In this document: piece by piece, positions 4,520 to 62,666 of the stretch
How the letters are laid out: each line of letters opens with the position of its first letter
Position numbering within the stretch: position 1 is the first letter of the stretch
Notes under the pieces: model-generated
What the model saw: the letters and a program-made list of their open reading frames with translations, nothing else
Database searches by the model: none
What the model was told of the DNA's origin: nothing
Program-made: the position numbers and the translations under genes
Origin: Bradyrhizobium algeriense
Lineage (GTDB): Bacteria > Pseudomonadota > Alphaproteobacteria > Rhizobiales > Xanthobacteraceae
Direction of reading: 5' to 3'
Assembly: GCF_003062295.1 (NCBI RefSeq)
Contig: NZ_PYCN01000008.1
Location: forward strand, 62,001-126,000
DNA: 64,000 nucleotides

Positions 4520-5185
4520 CTAAAGGCTGGCCAGCCCGCACTCGACGGCCAGGCGGACGAGTTGCGCGTCGGTTCGCATGCCCGTCTTGGTCTTGATCAG
4601 ATAGTGATAGTTTTGAACGGTCTTGATGCTGAGATTGAGGTTGGAGGCGATCTGCTCCGCCGTCGCGCCGGCAGCCAATTGCCTGAGGATCTCGATCTCC
4701 CTTTCTCCCAACTGGTCGAGCACCGATCCTGACGGGGAGAGGCTTTCCATCGCCAGGACGTGCGCGATGTCGTCGCTCATCGCGTGTTCGCCGCGCGCCA
4801 CGGCACGGATCGCCTTGATGAGCGCGGCCGGTTCGCTGCTCTTGGTCACATAGCCGCTCGCCCCGGCACTGAAGGCGGCCTTCACCAGCGCCGCCTCGCT
4901 ATGCATGCTGAAGACCAGGATGCGTGAGCCGGAGTGCCTCAACCGGATGTTCCGGATGGCCTCGAGGCCGCTGGCCCCGGGCATCGATATGTCCATGACC
5001 ACGATGTCGGGGGCATGGGTCTTGAACGCACGGTAAGCGTTGACGGCGTTGTCGGCCTCGGCGACCACGCGGAAGTCGCTTTGGTGCTCCAATACACGCC
5101 GGTAGCCCTGCCGGACGACAGGATGGTCGTCGACCAGCAGGATCGAAATGCCCTTGGCCTGTCTGGTTGAATCAGGATCGATCAT
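4520..5185 (-). CDS. NarL/FixJ-family response regulator
   Basis: A 221-residue two-domain regulator. The receiver (residues about 14-130) has an intact acidic pair (Asp19-Asp20), phospho-acceptor Asp65 in VVMDISMPG and Lys115 in GYVTKSS. A LuxR-type helix-turn-helix follows (about 155-215, LGEREIEILRQLAAGATAEQ). It lies 9 bases downstream of the sensor kinase gene at 5195-6577 on the same strand, so the two form an operon and very likely a cognate pair. The pair resembles MoxX/MoxY-type systems in architecture, but no methanol oxidation genes are in this window, so the signal and targets are unknown. Confidence 0.92.
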   Translation of the reverse strand: MIDPDSTRQAKGISILLVDDHPVVRQGYRRVLEHQSDFRVVAEADNAVNAYRAFKTHAPDIVVMDISMPGASGLEAIRNIRLRHSGSRILVFSMHSEAALVKAAFSAGASGYVTKSSEPAALIKAIRAVARGEHAMSDDIAHVLAMESLSPSGSVLDQLGEREIEILRQLAAGATAEQIASNLNLSIKTVQNYHYLIKTKTGMRTDAQLVRLAVECGLASL

Positions 5186-5194
5186 GCTCTGGCG

Positions 5195-6577
5195 TCAAGC
5201 GGCGAGCGGTATAGTGGCGGCCACGCTTACGCCACGCCGCGCGCGCGCGATCGAAAGCGAGCCGCCAAGCGCTGTCACTCTCTCACGGATTCCGGTCAGG
5301 CCGAAGCCTGTGGACTGTGCCACCTTGGCCGCATCCCCGCCGCCGTCGTCCTCGACGCGGATCAGCAGCGCATTTTCCGTCCCTGTCCGCCGCTCGATCC
5401 GGAGCACGATTTCGCGCGCGGCGCTGTGGCGCAACGAATTGGTCAGGCATTCCTGGGCGACGCGGTAGGCGGTCGCGGCAACGGTGCCGCGCACGTCGGC
5501 GAGGTCGCCCTGCAGGTCGAGCTGGATCATCGGCTGCGTCGCATTCTGTGACCGCCAGCTGTCGACCAGGCTGACGAGGCAGGCTTCCAGTCCGAGTTCC
5601 TCGGCGGGTGGATGGCGCAAACGATTCAAGGTATCCCGCAGGCAGGCCATGATGCGGTGGGTGGCTTGCGAGATCATCCGCGCATCCTGCGCGACATCGC
5701 TCGCGACGTTGCTCTTGGCCTGTTCCCGCGCGCCGGTCGCTTCGATGATGCTGGCGAAGGCGAGAATGGCAGAAAGGTTCTGTCCGAACTCATCGTGCAA
5801 CTCGCGGGCAAGCGCCCGCCGCTCGTCGTTGCGGATTTCAAGCAGGCGCCGGGTCAGGACGGCGCGTTCTTCCGTGGCCTGCGCGAGGCGCTCTCCGAGA
5901 TCGCCGACGGCTTGCCCGATCATGGCGAGTTCCATCGACCGGAAACGCGGCAGCGATGTCCGGTATTGTCCGTGCGCCATGCGTTGCAATGCCGCGACAA
6001 TCTGCTGCGCCGGCGCCAGCGTATGCGCGATGGCGAGCGATGCGAAGAAGGCGATGGCCAGGGCCATCAGCAGTGCGACGTGGATGTTATCCACGATGTG
6101 TTGCCAGGCCAGCGATATCGCGGCGTCCGGATCGGCGATGGCCGAGACGGTGCCTGCGGTAACGTTACGCGTGCTGATTGACCGGGCCACCGCCGCGTGG
6201 GTGCCAAACAAGGTCTGCACGGCCGCGGCGAACCAGAGCGGCGGCGGCTGGCCGATCCCCTTGCTCTGGCCGCAGAGCGGATTCTCGAACGCGCCCACCG
6301 GCTCGAACCGGACGCAAATTCCCGGCGAAATCAGCTTCATCGTCTCGATGGTGCGCCAGTCGGACACCGGCATGAGATGTTCGCGCGTTCGGTTGCTGCG
6401 CAACAGCAACTCGCGCCAGTACAGCGCTTCCAGCGCCTGGGAGACCCGTTCTGCGGATGAGGCCGTGGCTCGATCGACGCTGCGATAGGCGTCGATGGTG
6501 GCCCAGATGGTCGCAGCCCCCAGACACAAGGCGACGACGACGAGCAGGCGGGCGACGAGTTGAAGCACGAGGCGCAT
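5195..6577 (-). CDS. Membrane sensor histidine kinase, HisKA_3 (NarX/UhpB/MoxY-like)
   Basis: A 460-residue kinase, partner of the regulator directly downstream. The start is taken at the ATG at 6577, which has GGAGTGA upstream and places a hydrophobic segment at the N-terminus (MRLVLQLVARLLVVVALCLG). Two membrane segments (about residues 5-27 and 163-187) enclose a periplasmic sensing region of roughly 135 residues. A HAMP-like linker follows, then the HisKA_3 dimerisation helix with the phospho-accepting His261 in ALARELHDEFGQNLSAI, and a C-terminal HATPase_c domain with the DDGGGD and GFGLTGIRERV boxes. The extracytoplasmic domain resembles the LapD/MoxY N-terminal type by topology. Signal unknown. 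Confidence 0.9.
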   Translation of the reverse strand: MRLVLQLVARLLVVVALCLGAATIWATIDAYRSVDRATASSAERVSQALEALYWRELLLRSNRTREHLMPVSDWRTIETMKLISPGICVRFEPVGAFENPLCGQSKGIGQPPPLWFAAAVQTLFGTHAAVARSISTRNVTAGTVSAIADPDAAISLAWQHIVDNIHVALLMALAIAFFASLAIAHTLAPAQQIVAALQRMAHGQYRTSLPRFRSMELAMIGQAVGDLGERLAQATEERAVLTRRLLEIRNDERRALARELHDEFGQNLSAILAFASIIEATGAREQAKSNVASDVAQDARMISQATHRIMACLRDTLNRLRHPPAEELGLEACLVSLVDSWRSQNATQPMIQLDLQGDLADVRGTVAATAYRVAQECLTNSLRHSAAREIVLRIERRTGTENALLIRVEDDGGGDAAKVAQSTGFGLTGIRERVTALGGSLSIARARRGVSVAATIPLAA

Positions 6578-6789
6578 GCGATCACTCCACGGCTTGTCGA
6601 TGACGGTAACAGCACCGCTATTTCGTTCCAATTGCAAGCCGGTGGTGCCGCGCAGATTGGGAAATTTTCCCGGCAACCCGCGGGCATATGTCTTTGGACC
6701 GCGCCTGCGGCCTCTGATCTAACGAGTGGCGAGGGGGCCTTTTGGCGGGTGGGCTTCGGCGCAGCAGCCCTCAAGGGAGCTAACGCAGC

Positions 6790-7572
6790 ATGAGTGCCAT
6801 TGGTGCCGAGACCGCATTATCAGGCACGGCCACGCCGGAACGCGGCGTCCTGCTGCTCTGGATGATCTTTACCGGGCTTTCGGTCTTTGCCGTCTTCCTG
6901 CTGTGGCGGTACGGGTTGATCCATCTCATGGTCGCCTCCGACCGCACCTATATTTCGAGCCTGATCGCCGTTCTCTACCTCATCACCTGCGGCCATTGCT
7001 TCTGGCGAACGCGCGCGATCGCGCGGGAAGGCGAGGTCGCAAGAGGCTGTCGCGCCGTGCTGTCGGCGCCTGATGGCGCGAAGGCGCTCGGCGCCGATGC
7101 GCGCGGCCTGCCGGGCGGGTTGGTCAGCGATCACATCCGCAGCCTGGTGACGAAGGCCAGGGCGCAAGCCGCCGGCCGCATCGACCAGACGCTGCTGTTG
7201 CGGACGCTGGCCGACCGGTTGAGGGGCTCCAACGGGTTTGGTGCATTCGTTTCCGACACGCTGATGAAGCTCGGACTGCTCGGCACGATCGTCGGCTTTA
7301 TCATCATGCTGGCGCCGATCGCCACGCTGGACGCGGCCGACAAGGCCGCGATGAAAACATCGATGGGCCTGATGAGCGACGGCATGGCGGTGGCCATGTA
7401 CACGACGCTGGCGGGCTTGATCGGCTCCATCCTGGTCCGCATCCAATATTACATGCTCGATGCCGCGACCCAGCGGGTGTTTTCCGATGCCGTCATGCTG
7501 ACCGAGACCCACGTCACCCCGGTATTGGAAAGCCGCCTTGTATTGGAAAGCCGTCTTGGAACGCCGCCATGA
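6790..7572 (+). CDS. MotA/TolQ/ExbB-like proton channel family protein
   Basis: A 260-residue inner-membrane protein with four predicted membrane segments (about residues 19-40, 55-73, 158-178 and 195-218). The second half has the MotA/TolQ/ExbB core pattern: MKLGLLGTIVGFIIML, then a small-residue helix with GMAVAMYTTLAGLIGSIL. Family members form pentameric channels that use the proton gradient to drive a partner protein. AGGGAG lies upstream of the ATG. It is the first gene of a three-gene operon: its stop overlaps the next start (ATGA). The partners are not recognisable TolR, ExbD or MotB, so I do not give a tol, exb or mot symbol. The last residues come from an 18-bp tandem duplication. 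Function unknown. Confidence 0.85.
   Translation: MSAIGAETALSGTATPERGVLLLWMIFTGLSVFAVFLLWRYGLIHLMVASDRTYISSLIAVLYLITCGHCFWRTRAIAREGEVARGCRAVLSAPDGAKALGADARGLPGGLVSDHIRSLVTKARAQAAGRIDQTLLLRTLADRLRGSNGFGAFVSDTLMKLGLLGTIVGFIIMLAPIATLDAADKAAMKTSMGLMSDGMAVAMYTTLAGLIGSILVRIQYYMLDAATQRVFSDAVMLTETHVTPVLESRLVLESRLGTPP
7523..7558 (+). repeat. 18-bp tandem duplication at the end of the channel gene
   Basis: The unit TATTGGAAAGCCGCCTTG is followed directly by a copy with one base changed (GTC for GCC in the middle). It keeps the frame and gives the C-terminal pair LESRLV-LESRLG, so it looks like a recent in-frame slippage event. Confidence 0.85.
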
Positions 7573-8243
7573 TGGATGACTTCGGTCTCTATCCGCGCGA
7601 GGAGCCGTTCGACCCGCTCGGCGTGATGCTGTTCAAGGCGCTGCAGGTGATCGCCTTCCTGTTCTTCCTGGCTTTGCTTGCGATCTCGCCGGACGCGAAG
7701 GATGGCAAGATCGATTCCAAGGCCGAATTCCTCATCACGATGGATTGGCCGGACAATCATCCTGACGACTTCGATCTGTTCGTGCAGGACCCTGCCGGCA
7801 ACATCGCCTGGTATCGCCGTCGCGAAGCCGGTTTCCTCACCCTCGACCGCGATGATCGCGGCGGCGCCAACGACTTCATCGTCGTCGCCGGCAAGAAGAT
7901 CCTGTCGCCGATCCGGGAGGAGATCGTCACGGTGCGCGGCATCGTCCCCGGCGAATACACCGTCAACGTCTCGCACTTTCAGGCCATCACCGGGCAGCCC
8001 GTCGCGGTGAGCGTCAAGGTTCAGAAACTCAATCCAACCGCGCAGGTGATCTTCGACAACAAGCTGACGCTCGACCACACCGGCGACGAGAAGACGGCGG
8101 TGCGGTTCTGGCTCGACGCCGCAGGCAAGGTGGTCGACGTCCAGCAGCGGCAGAAGTCGTTGATGGAGACGTTCCGCAACGTTCGCTCCAACGGCGCGGA
8201 TCTCGATCCGAAAACCGGCGTGAGGATGCCGCGCCGTGAATAG
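7569..8243 (+). CDS. Single-pass membrane protein, probable partner of the channel protein
   Basis: A 224-residue protein with one predicted membrane helix (about residues 19-42) and a large region beyond it, expected in the periplasm. That region contains DWPDNHPDDFDLFVQDPAGN, reminiscent of beta-sandwich domains that present D-x-D loops (YfaP/DUF2135-like), then mostly beta-type sequence. Topology, size and gene order match the second component of motor systems (ExbD, TolR, MotB), but I see no ExbD/TolR or OmpA-type domain, and the helix lacks the buried Asp normal for a proton path; the nearest acids are just before it (REEPFDP). It overlaps the upstream gene by 4 bases and the downstream one by 8, implying translational coupling. 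No function can be assigned. Confidence 0.75.
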   Translation: MMDDFGLYPREEPFDPLGVMLFKALQVIAFLFFLALLAISPDAKDGKIDSKAEFLITMDWPDNHPDDFDLFVQDPAGNIAWYRRREAGFLTLDRDDRGGANDFIVVAGKKILSPIREEIVTVRGIVPGEYTVNVSHFQAITGQPVAVSVKVQKLNPTAQVIFDNKLTLDHTGDEKTAVRFWLDAAGKVVDVQQRQKSLMETFRNVRSNGADLDPKTGVRMPRRE

Positions 8244-8844
8244 CCTTCAATCCGTCATCCTGACGCTCTCTCTCAGCTACGCGCTGATCGGCGCGCTGTT
8301 GCTGATTGTCCTCGTCTATGCGCGTGTGCCCTGGTCGGCCAAGGCGATCGCCGTGGTGATAACGAGCGCGTTTTACATTGCGAGCTTTGTCGGGGTGCGC
8401 GGACTGCTGGGTTGGGCCAGCGTCGACAGGCTTCCTGTCGCCTTCAAATTGCTGCAGGCCCGTATCGTCGAGCCGCACTCGCTGGACGGCGATCCGGGCT
8501 CGATCTATCTCTGGGTCGAGACGCTCGACGACGGCAATCGGCCGAGCGGCGTCCCGCGGGCGTACCGCATTCCCTACAGCGACAGGCTTGCGGAAAAGAC
8601 CGACAAGGCGGCGAGCGAGATCGCCGCTGGCCGTGCACAGGGCGGCCGCGCCGCCGATTTTGGCGATGGCGGCGGCGGGCTGCTCCAAGCCGCCCGCGAG
8701 TACATCACGCCCAGCATGATCCTGGACACGTCGGGCGGCGATCCCTCGACGGGCGGGGGATTGCTTGCGACGCCCCGCGATGGCGACGAGGTGTCGTTTA
8801 CGCCACTACTGCCGCCGCGAATGCCGCCGAAGGACGAGCCATAG
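8236..8844 (+). CDS. Hypothetical two-helix membrane protein, third gene of the channel operon
   Basis: A 202-residue protein starting at GTG 8236, inside the end of the preceding gene. Two predicted membrane helices (about residues 7-29 and 34-58) are followed by a soluble region, likely periplasmic or cytosolic depending on orientation. The region contains a short beta-rich part (IYLWVETLDDGNRPSGVPRA) and a long glycine- and proline-rich, probably disordered tail (GDGGGG, GGDPSTGGG, TPLLPPRMPPK). I do not recognise a family. Tight overlap with the two upstream genes suggests one complex. A promoter and operator for the next transcription unit begin 35 bases after the stop. Confidence 0.7.
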   Translation: MNSLQSVILTLSLSYALIGALLLIVLVYARVPWSAKAIAVVITSAFYIASFVGVRGLLGWASVDRLPVAFKLLQARIVEPHSLDGDPGSIYLWVETLDDGNRPSGVPRAYRIPYSDRLAEKTDKAASEIAAGRAQGGRAADFGDGGGGLLQAAREYITPSMILDTSGGDPSTGGGLLATPRDGDEVSFTPLLPPRMPPKDEP

Positions 8845-9856: not shown

Positions 9857-11791
9857 TCAGTTGATCCGCTGACCCGTGATCTGCCAGGGTCCCGGATTGA
9901 GCACCAGGCGCATCGGGCCGGCCCCGTCGCGCAGGAAGGCAAGGCGGGTGTGGTCGCCGCCATCCACGAAGAACTCGTTGCTCGACATCGGGACGACCGT
10001 GATCGCTGCACCTTTCTCAAAATCGAGGACCGGCAGGTCTCCGCTTGCCTCGATCAGGAGGTGGCCATCCTTGTTGACGACTTGAAGATCGGCTGCTCCT
10101 TGCAGTCGGATCCGGGCGCGGACGAGCGACACCTCGATCGGCCCGTCCTGTCCCTTCCGTATGATCCTCAGGCGGACCTTGGTGTTGACCGGTCCGCGCA
10201 TCTTCTCGATCGCCTGATTGAGGGAAATGCCTTGGATCGCCGCGTCGTCGAGATGTGTGATGATGTCACCTGCCATGATGCCGGCCTTGGCGGCGGGCAT
10301 GCCCCGGATCGGAGACACTACCTTGAGCTGGCCATTCTCTGTGGCGACGTCGACGCCGAGGCCGCCGAACTCGCGGGGCACCTGCATGTCGCGTGAGCTG
10401 GGCGATCCGAGCCGATAGGTTCCCGCATAAGCCGCGAGCGTGTCCGAGTCGATCCTCACCGGGGCCGCGGCGGCGTCCGGGACGCCCTGGTCAGGAACGC
10501 GGAAGGCTCCATAGGTGAGATTGCGAAACGGACGGTTGAATGGACCGCCCATACTTGGTGCAACCTGGATCAACTGCAAGGCGATCAGTTGCTCCGCCGG
10601 GTCGATCCAGAAATAGGTGCCCGAGGTGCCCATCCAGTTGAAGCTGCCAACCGATCCAGGCACCATGCTCCACGCGGCATCGCTGCGGACCGCAAAGCCA
10701 AGTCCCCAGGTCGAGCCACCCTGGGGCCCGACGATGCCGCTGCCGGCGAAGCGGATGTCTGATGGTAGCGCGTTCGTGGTCATCAGCTTCACGGTTGCGG
10801 GCGAAAGGATGCGGACTCCGTCGAGTTCGCCGCGGTTGAGCAGCATCTGGCAAAACCGCAGATAATCGGCGGCCGTCGACACCAGTCCACCACCGCCCGA
10901 GAACAGTTTGGTCGGCTTGGTGACGTCAGCCATCACGCTGTCCGGCGGCCCGCTGATGGCGGGCGGATCAACCAGGCGGGAAAGCTTGGCTTCGGGCACG
11001 TGAAAGCCGGTGTCGACCATCTCCAGCGGTCTGAACAGCCGTGCCTCCAGGAATTGGTCGAACGGTTGACCGGAAGCCACCTCGATGACACGCGCGAGTA
11101 CATCGACGGAGAGACCGTAGTCCCAGACCTCGCCCGGCTGGTGAGCAAGTGGAAGTTTGGCCAGACCGGAGACGAAATCGGCAAGCGTTTTGTCCCGGCG
11201 GTACACGCCGGTCATGCCATAGAGGCTTCTGTACAGTTGGTCCACCTTCGTGCCACCCACACCGTAGACCAGCCCGGCGGTATGGCGCAGCAGGTCCTCA
11301 ACTGTCATCGGGCGCTTCTGCGGCTCGTACATGAGATCTGTCTTGCCGCTCGCCGGGTCTTTCGTCTCGACGCCGACCATCATGTCCTTGAGTTCGGGAA
11401 GATAGCGATGGACCGGGGCGGTGAGGTCGAGCTTTCCTTCTTCGACCAGCATCATGGCGGCAACGCTGGTGACCGGTTTGGTCATCGAGGCGATCCAGAA
11501 GATCGCATCGGGCTGTAGCGGGATCGTCTTGGCCCGGTCGCGAAAGCCTACAGCTCGCAGATACGCGACCTTGCCATTGCGCGCGATCGCTGCAACCGCG
11601 CCCGAGAAGGCGCCGGCATCGACCTGCGACTGTTGCCAGGCCGCGATCCGCGCCAACCGCGATGACGAGAAACCGAGTGCTTCCGGGCCGCCCGCCGGCG
11701 CGACGGCGTAGGCGCGGGCGGCGGTAGCAAGGCCGAGAGTGACGAGACAGGGGATCGACAAAGCCGCGAGAAGGCGATGCAGGCGCTTCAT
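9857..11791 (-). CDS. Secreted beta-lactamase-fold serine hydrolase with C-terminal PDZ domain
   Basis: A 644-residue protein with a signal peptide (about residues 1-28, cleaved after ARA). Residues about 40-430 form a class C beta-lactamase/penicillin-binding-protein-like serine hydrolase: the nucleophile is Ser102 with Lys105 in ASMTKPVTS, and Tyr225 in WDYGLS is the second motif. Family members include esterases, D-aminopeptidases and LACTB-like proteases, so true beta-lactamase activity is not implied. A PDZ domain follows (about 465-565; KAGIMAGDIITHLDDAAIQG), then a C-terminal beta-rich region. The PDZ addition suggests peptide or protein recognition in the periplasm. It appears to be a single-gene unit with no clear partner. 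Confidence 0.88.
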   Translation of the reverse strand: MKRLHRLLAALSIPCLVTLGLATAARAYAVAPAGGPEALGFSSSRLARIAAWQQSQVDAGAFSGAVAAIARNGKVAYLRAVGFRDRAKTIPLQPDAIFWIASMTKPVTSVAAMMLVEEGKLDLTAPVHRYLPELKDMMVGVETKDPASGKTDLMYEPQKRPMTVEDLLRHTAGLVYGVGGTKVDQLYRSLYGMTGVYRRDKTLADFVSGLAKLPLAHQPGEVWDYGLSVDVLARVIEVASGQPFDQFLEARLFRPLEMVDTGFHVPEAKLSRLVDPPAISGPPDSVMADVTKPTKLFSGGGGLVSTAADYLRFCQMLLNRGELDGVRILSPATVKLMTTNALPSDIRFAGSGIVGPQGGSTWGLGFAVRSDAAWSMVPGSVGSFNWMGTSGTYFWIDPAEQLIALQLIQVAPSMGGPFNRPFRNLTYGAFRVPDQGVPDAAAAPVRIDSDTLAAYAGTYRLGSPSSRDMQVPREFGGLGVDVATENGQLKVVSPIRGMPAAKAGIMAGDIITHLDDAAIQGISLNQAIEKMRGPVNTKVRLRIIRKGQDGPIEVSLVRARIRLQGAADLQVVNKDGHLLIEASGDLPVLDFEKGAAITVVPMSSNEFFVDGGDHTRLAFLRDGAGPMRLVLNPGPWQITGQRIN

Positions 11792-61577: not shown

Positions 61578-62666
<1,089 letters not shown>

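Follow-up and report, generated by a model that had tools for sequence, protein, structure and literature searches.

The closest described relatives of the system treated here are the MotA-MotB, TolQ-TolR and ExbB-ExbD complexes, and threonines in both channel helices have a functional role in the MotA/TolQ/ExbB channels. In addition, one publication speaks of 'generic ion transporters' that carry assorted domains of unknown function (PMC12505986); because of these assorted domains, a new partner domain beside such a channel is best seen as a variant on a known kind of motor. Here we describe three adjacent genes of Bradyrhizobium algeriense, called A, B and C in the following, which lie in a stretch of 64,000 nucleotides (positions 62,001 to 126,000 of contig NZ_PYCN01000008.1, hereafter the window) of the assembly GCF_003062295.1, which comprises 8.9 Mb in 336 contigs. 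The trio resembles the known complexes in that its channel belongs to the Pfam family of theirs and has its two threonines at matching places, and in having an adjacent partner gene whose product has one N-terminal helix with an aspartate at the helix start in most relatives. However, the partner is predicted to carry a DUF2135-like sandwich and has no ExbD- or OmpA-like Pfam domain, a third conserved membrane gene is added, and the rhizobial branch is without the aspartate.

By analogy with the known complexes, the three proteins quite probably form a motor-like assembly, and it appears somewhat likely that in the family as a whole this assembly serves the pyrroloquinoline quinone (PQQ) system. 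The complete reading, i.e. an ion-driven motor of the 5:2 type that serves periplasmic PQQ enzymes, has in our view an even chance of being correct. Among the literature matches listed, the trio is not described in titles or abstract openings.

The gene trio and its conservation

Gene A (6790..7572, plus strand, start codon ATG) encodes 260 amino acids. The channel-type character that the initial annotation had read from the GLLGTIVGF core was borne out by a Pfam profile scan, in which A matches PF01618 with an E value of 3.6e-8 and 33.7 bits at a cut-off of 22.9. The genome contains seven PF01618 matches over the cut-off, among which A scores lowest. The protein has four hydrophobic stretches (about 17-50, 53-72, 153-185 and 198-218), a MotA-like number, and its channel helices contain the motifs GLLGTIVGF, with T166, and AMYTTLAGL, with T206. 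In an alignment with five ExbB/TolQ-type paralogues of the same genome, which did not include two further PF01618 matches, these motifs stand against GLFGTVWGI and ALLATAIGL, and T166 and T206 fall on the threonines of the paralogues. The first channel threonine is replaced by lysine in three members from another class (L068-L070).

Gene B (7569..8243, plus strand, ATG) encodes 224 amino acids and gene C (8236..8844, plus strand, GTG) 202 amino acids. According to the open reading frame coordinates A and B overlap by 4 bases and B and C by 8 bases, as had been noticed initially.

Proteins of the B family were found in 21 of the 149 genomes of a family sample, in 58 of the 385 genomes of a class sample and in 16 of the 398 genomes of a phylum sample, as well as in 5 of 150 genomes from the order to which G747, a member of another class, belongs; the genome of the window has one B. 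The class-sample proteins were split by score into a near group of 31 genomes (E < 1e-35) and a remote group of 27. Longer stretches of DNA, comprising 53 loci and the window, contain A in 52 of 54 cases, the remaining two being a locus cut by a contig end (L094) and one with a weak B without A (L112). Each of the 20 near-group stretches (L073-L092) and each of the 13 family stretches (L113-L125) has C together with B; in L083, C follows at a distance of about 670 bases. Of 20 remote-group stretches, nine gave a match to the C profile and another six contain a related small gene, the order in one of these six (L104) being A-C-B. Furthermore, all three genes occur in 79 of 80 named contigs, which are the best 80 of 533 and of which 77 are labelled Bradyrhizobium, and their order is A-B-C in each of the 67 with long flanks. 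The scan of named contigs also places B of the bradyrhizobial strain BTAi1 at about 5,573,560-5,574,219 of NC_009485.1. The ratio of non-synonymous to synonymous substitutions (dN/dS) was 0.08-0.27 in 14 pairwise comparisons with five named relatives, one comparison of C giving no value. Because of the invariable order in the long-flank contigs and the low dN/dS, the trio is real beyond chance. It recurs in this order across many genera of the class and in a few outside, with some extra B copies lacking A or C as exceptions to the conservation that had been anticipated for the trio. A plasmid search yielded seven Azospirillum records with 30-33% identity, and the one inspected carries no annotation at this place.

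A predicted DUF2135-like domain on the axle-type subunit

The axle-type subunit B had initially been described as a protein with one membrane helix and a large periplasmic part. The AlphaFold2 model, calculated with 26 sequences, agrees with this description by showing a helix at residues 16-39 followed by a beta-sandwich (mean predicted local distance difference test score, pLDDT, 82.9), which would be situated on the periplasmic side. The absence of ExbD, TolR and MotB domains was likewise confirmed, as Pfam gave no match of B to an ExbD/TolR or OmpA-like domain and the HHalign comparison with ExbD was not significant. Neither B nor C matched a family over the cut-off in Pfam, NCBIfam, PADLOC or PHROG. 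Weak matches of B to PF04151, PF08661 and LapB were all under the cut-off, and the single match of its profile to PDB sequences (E 0.31) was disregarded.

The statement that both partners are unrecognised holds for these family searches, but B is found to be DUF2135-like when profiles are compared. In HHalign comparisons with a DUF2135 (PF09906) profile from seven loci, which had been chosen by a motif that B also has, the near group reached 95.7%, the remote group 95.6% and both together 96.8%. With a profile from all nine loci, i.e. every fetched locus and no choice by motif, the values were 95.2%, 94.1% and 96.1%. The controls against the seven- and nine-locus profiles gave 0.5 and 0.4% for reversed B, 0.1 and 0.5% for A, 0.1% for C, and 5.5 and 12.8% for TerD. 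Single B proteins reached 12.6-21.5 bits with PF09906 at a cut-off of 22 in four of the eight relatives scanned, and no match was found in the other four or in B of the window. DUF2135 and B have W, D-x-D-L, DP-x-G and PG-x-Y motifs in common; the difference is that in B the domain is mounted on a motor-type axle helix. The family DUF2135 is presumably that of the Escherichia coli protein YfaP, and the term was found in no paper of the literature searched.

The fold was compared with the PDB using residues 44-206 of B. VIA-align placed three structures of the TerD type, a family named for tellurite resistance, among its top six, 3ibz (TerD, Z 11.3), 2qz7 (TerD homologue, 9.8) and 2kxt (Klebsiella TerD, 9.3), together with 2qng (function unknown, 9.8), 9a6r (integrative model, 9.5) and 7jtk (radial spoke, 9.2). 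These six superimpose over 120-145 residues with root-mean-square deviations of 3.1-4.4, and the following rows begin at Z 6.3. Foldseek found nothing in the PDB at E 0.001, and its top rows, with TM-scores mostly of 0.1-0.3, were set aside. An assignment of B to TerD by sequence was rejected (HHalign 0.3-1.2%; column-shuffle z 1.2-3.1 in 60 shuffles), so that the likeness is one of fold only. From the profile comparisons and the structural model, the periplasmic part of B is thus predicted to be a DUF2135-like domain with a TerD-like fold.

In locus L273 a second B-like protein (L273:3218-3754), which is without the axle helix and has, by eye, a signal-peptide-like start, is encoded directly after a full B gene. 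Genome G512, which holds this locus, has four B matches.

The third membrane subunit and a fourth gene

For C, AlphaFold2 (pLDDT 79.7) predicts helices at residues 4-28 and 33-55, a folded part up to about residue 139, a low-confidence linker of only about 45 residues and a strand at 186-190. The two helices and the disordered tail initially ascribed to C are recognizable in this model, but the end of the tail was misjudged, because an invariant PxK follows the predicted strand: Pro197 and Lys199 near the C-terminus, forming an LPxK-type motif, are identical in all 25 aligned members. A comparison of the C fold with the PDB, in which helical pairs and OB-type barrels came up with a best Z of 6.3, was below the meaningful level of the tool and was rejected.

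A conserved fourth gene of about 235 amino acids is situated 3' of C in ten loci (L080, L082, L083, L084, L086, L090, L091, L092, L275 and L276; L277 is the same place as L090), for example at L084:7665-8357 and L092:10172-10882. By eye, its product mostly looks like a lipoprotein. It had no match in the 13 family stretches, and the two members scanned had no NCBIfam match.

Exchange of charged residues in the rhizobial clade

The absence of an aspartate from the helix of B had been noted initially. It is correct for B of the window, in which D15 stands just before the helix and no aspartate within it, but it is a derived state, and the residues K23 and Q26, which accompany V19, had been overlooked. 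An alignment of 46 sequences shows aspartate at position 19, close to where the helix begins, in all 20 remote sequences and in 17 of the 26 near ones, while 8 near sequences, the window among them, have valine together with Lys23 and Gln26. Lys23 and Gln26 are invariant in 14 aligned sequences, and all 80 named contigs have V19-K23-Q26. A tree of 54 B proteins unites the ten V-K-Q sequences in one clade (support 0.97), which is nested among aspartate-bearing ones. Judged from alignment and tree, the Val19 state appears as derived, with the aspartate present in most relatives. An aspartate at this place has been described as conserved in MotB, where it binds the ion, and TolR has an equivalent residue (PMC9389320).

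Changes in the channel subunit separate the same clade. Five columns of A (157, 191, 194, 197 and 203) fully distinguish the V-K-Q clade from the others. Among them, position 197 is aspartate or glutamate in 8 of 8 clade rows and glycine, serine, threonine, valine or lysine in 17 of 17 others, when L039 is set aside, and it is aspartate in all 80 named contigs. D197 marks the start of helix 4 of A, and its column lies directly before the glycine that is aligned with the PG of the ExbB helix. The residue patterns indicate that in the rhizobial lineage an acid was lost from the axle and an acid was gained at the channel mouth, so that charges were swapped along what is presumably the path of the ion. 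To our knowledge such a swap has not been reported, although no literature search was made for it. A separate loss of the axle aspartate is seen in L039 (A 2102-2854, B 1423-2109), which has Ala19 and Lys26.

The exchange gives rise to the rival explanation that survives best, namely that the rhizobial complex is no longer a motor. K23 of B would then be bridged permanently to D197 of A, and the trio would be a static scaffold of the envelope or a channel that is sealed. In favor of it, the axle aspartate, which PMC9389320 describes as conserved and as binding the ion in these motors, is replaced by valine in all rhizobial-clade members examined, and K23 and D197 are fixed together. However, the low dN/dS of A and B argues against this explanation, as do the retention of both channel threonines and of the polar K23 and Q26 in the helix. 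We consider the loss of motor function possible but on the unlikely side.

Genomic link to PQQ-dependent alcohol oxidation

The clustering of flanking genes revealed PQQ alcohol dehydrogenases in 11 of the 54 longer stretches (L078, L079, L081, L085, L087, L092, L093, L094, L119, L121 and L123), which belong to eight families and have the gene on either strand; about 1.2 such stretches would be expected by position alone, using a generous gene count. Four of the 11 were scanned, with L081, L121 and L092 over the TIGR03075 cut-off and L093 at 340.8 bits versus 480. In L275, pqqB, pqqC and pqqE stand directly 5' of A, B and C on one strand, with a short gap between pqqC and pqqE. PqqB, PqqC and PqqE of this locus are over the cut-off, as is a PQQ alcohol dehydrogenase encoded beyond C on the opposite strand. 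In L091, pqqE is situated directly 5' of A, and the neighbours in L074 include a PQQ-linked ABC (ATP-binding cassette) substrate-binding protein (TIGR03863) and a beta-propeller protein (TIGR03866), both over the cut-off. In several families the trio thus lies in or beside clusters for PQQ biosynthesis and quinoprotein alcohol dehydrogenases, but the NCBIfam matches linked to PQQ that were found here did not include a family of the channel type.

The link is also visible at the level of whole genomes. Proteins over the TIGR03075 cut-off are encoded in 22 of 31 near-group genomes versus 69 of 354 others of the class sample (Fisher 6e-9), and PqqE over the cut-off in 21 of 21 B-bearing genomes versus 72 of 128 others of the family sample (p 3.5e-5), p-values that overstate independence because the genomes are related.

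Furthermore, the flanks of L074, L078, L079, L088, L121 and L123 contain cytochrome c and XoxJ-type genes, as named by eye, and PQQ-linked ABC transporter genes; the two candidates in L078 had no NCBIfam match at E 1e-10. In Methylomicrobium alcaliphilum, MEALZ_3990 and MEALZ_3991, named MotA/TolQ/ExbB, are reported to go down with lanthanum alongside the MxaFI genes (PMC6277846).

Two rival explanations concern this link. First, the trio could be a general envelope motor of the Tol-Pal kind, which came close to PQQ genes by shared transfer or life style. The patchy distribution of B in the class and family samples (58/385 and 21/149) and the weak PQQ link in the remote group would fit such a role. 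However, the trio adjoins pqqE in two genera and has PQQ alcohol dehydrogenase neighbours in eight families on either strand, and we regard a general envelope motor as rather improbable. Second, the trio might be a dedicated energiser like ExbB-ExbD-TonB, used for the uptake of PQQ, or of a compound linked to it, by a receptor in the outer membrane. A gene for a TonB-dependent receptor is located just 5' of A in L276, and L092 has a 44% identical one in the vicinity of the trio. The matches of these two receptors to the PqqU model are far under its cut-off. Several trio genomes also encode a PQQ alcohol dehydrogenase without PqqE over the cut-off. Nevertheless, no similar receptor was found in the other loci of a 57-locus search, and C has a short linker and no family match; we regard this proposal as still less probable than the former. 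Finally, although the trio shares with Zorya a MotA-type channel outside the flagellum and A weakly matches several ZorA models (best PADLOC E 9e-6), a Zorya-like or other anti-phage defence system is very improbable and was rejected, because these scores are short, weak and under the NCBIfam cut-offs, as would be expected of any MotA-type protein, and a scan of the trio proteins gave no PADLOC family for B or C.

Proposed mechanism

The mechanism that we favor, a motor serving periplasmic PQQ enzymes, starts from the observed gene order, the homology of A, the relation of B to DUF2135, the residue changes and the genomic PQQ link. A and B would form an inner-membrane complex like MotAB or ExbBD, with five A around two B by analogy. 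Ion flow would move the periplasmic DUF2135-like domain of B as an arm, and C would be a third membrane subunit coupling to this complex. The machine would exert its force in the service of periplasmic PQQ-dependent alcohol oxidation, most likely for the supply of cofactor, metal or substrate to quinoprotein dehydrogenases; candidate steps are cofactor export or loading, metal insertion and the energising of a receptor.

In most of the family, the aspartate with which the axle helix begins would carry the ion, just as in MotB and ExbD. The rhizobial branch exchanged this aspartate for valine, while lysine and glutamine became fixed at later positions of the helix and an acid became fixed where helix 4 of A begins; the ion path of this branch may have been rebuilt and not simply lost. 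A far-reaching version of this idea holds that the rhizobial motor still works, with its ion-binding carboxylate relocated to the five wheel subunits (Asp/Glu197 of A) from its place on the two axle helices (Asp19 of B), which received Lys23. This motor would drive the DUF2135-like arm, which may bind metal, and the arm would supply PQQ enzymes with cofactor or metal. Such a layout would be the reverse of the known 5:2 motors and would resemble the F-type ATP synthase, in which many ring carboxylates face a fixed basic residue. We mention it as a long shot.

Several observations weigh against the favored mechanism. For the gene trio as a unit, A and C were each found in 20 of 22 family loci, the exceptions being L012 (contig end), L029 (partial B) and L030 (B alone), and four extra copies of B, one each in L272 and L274 and two in L273, are accompanied by neither A nor C within the fetched DNA. 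Regarding PQQ, 9 of the 31 near-group genomes are without a PQQ alcohol dehydrogenase over the cut-off, and 13 of 49 near-group genomes picked for the test are without PqqE over the cut-off, some of these being near-complete and having a PQQ alcohol dehydrogenase beside the trio. In the remote group, PQQ alcohol dehydrogenases over the cut-off occur in 9 of 27 genomes. The genome of the window itself has its PQQ alcohol dehydrogenase and PqqE genes on other contigs than the trio, and in other stretches of the same genus (L113-L115 and L118) the trio is not beside PQQ genes.

Regarding the ion path, HHalign of the helix region of B sets position 19 on the aspartate of ExbD, but at a non-significant 0.2-5.8%, and full-length near-group B aligns elsewhere on ExbD at 0.3%. 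Position 197 of A is alanine and not an acid in L039, despite the loss of the axle aspartate. Because the swap is one event on the tree, we can only infer a causal link between the changes in A and B, and independent covariation is beyond reach. Proton drive in the branch of the window is the point most in doubt, because the proton-carrying residue of the known motors is absent; either a rebuilt ion path or a frozen scaffold may apply to this branch.

Neighbouring genes

Upstream of A, a divergent gene (5195..6676, minus strand) encodes a sensor histidine kinase that is UhpB/NarX-like, with scores below the cut-offs of those models. Beside it lies a response regulator gene (4520..5185, minus strand), which was named by eye. 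Both genes adjoin A in 64 of the 67 named contigs with long flanks, and the histidine kinase is a possible candidate for a regulator of the trio. Relatives of the kinase and the response regulator were also seen near the trio and the PQQ alcohol dehydrogenase in L092. Further downstream in the window (9857-11791), a 644-amino-acid protein is encoded that by eye resembles a serine hydrolase of the secreted kind, extended by a segment of PDZ type.

Significance

As far as we know, some transport and maturation steps of PQQ-dependent alcohol oxidation are still open. If the proposed mechanism is true, the trio would extend the ion-driven 5:2 motors by a branch whose periplasmic arm is new and whose metabolic context, PQQ-dependent alcohol oxidation, is clear. 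In the rhizobial lineage, the loss of the axle aspartate together with the gain of a lysine and of an acid in the partner would then be evolution's own experiment on a residue that is central to the models of how such motors turn.

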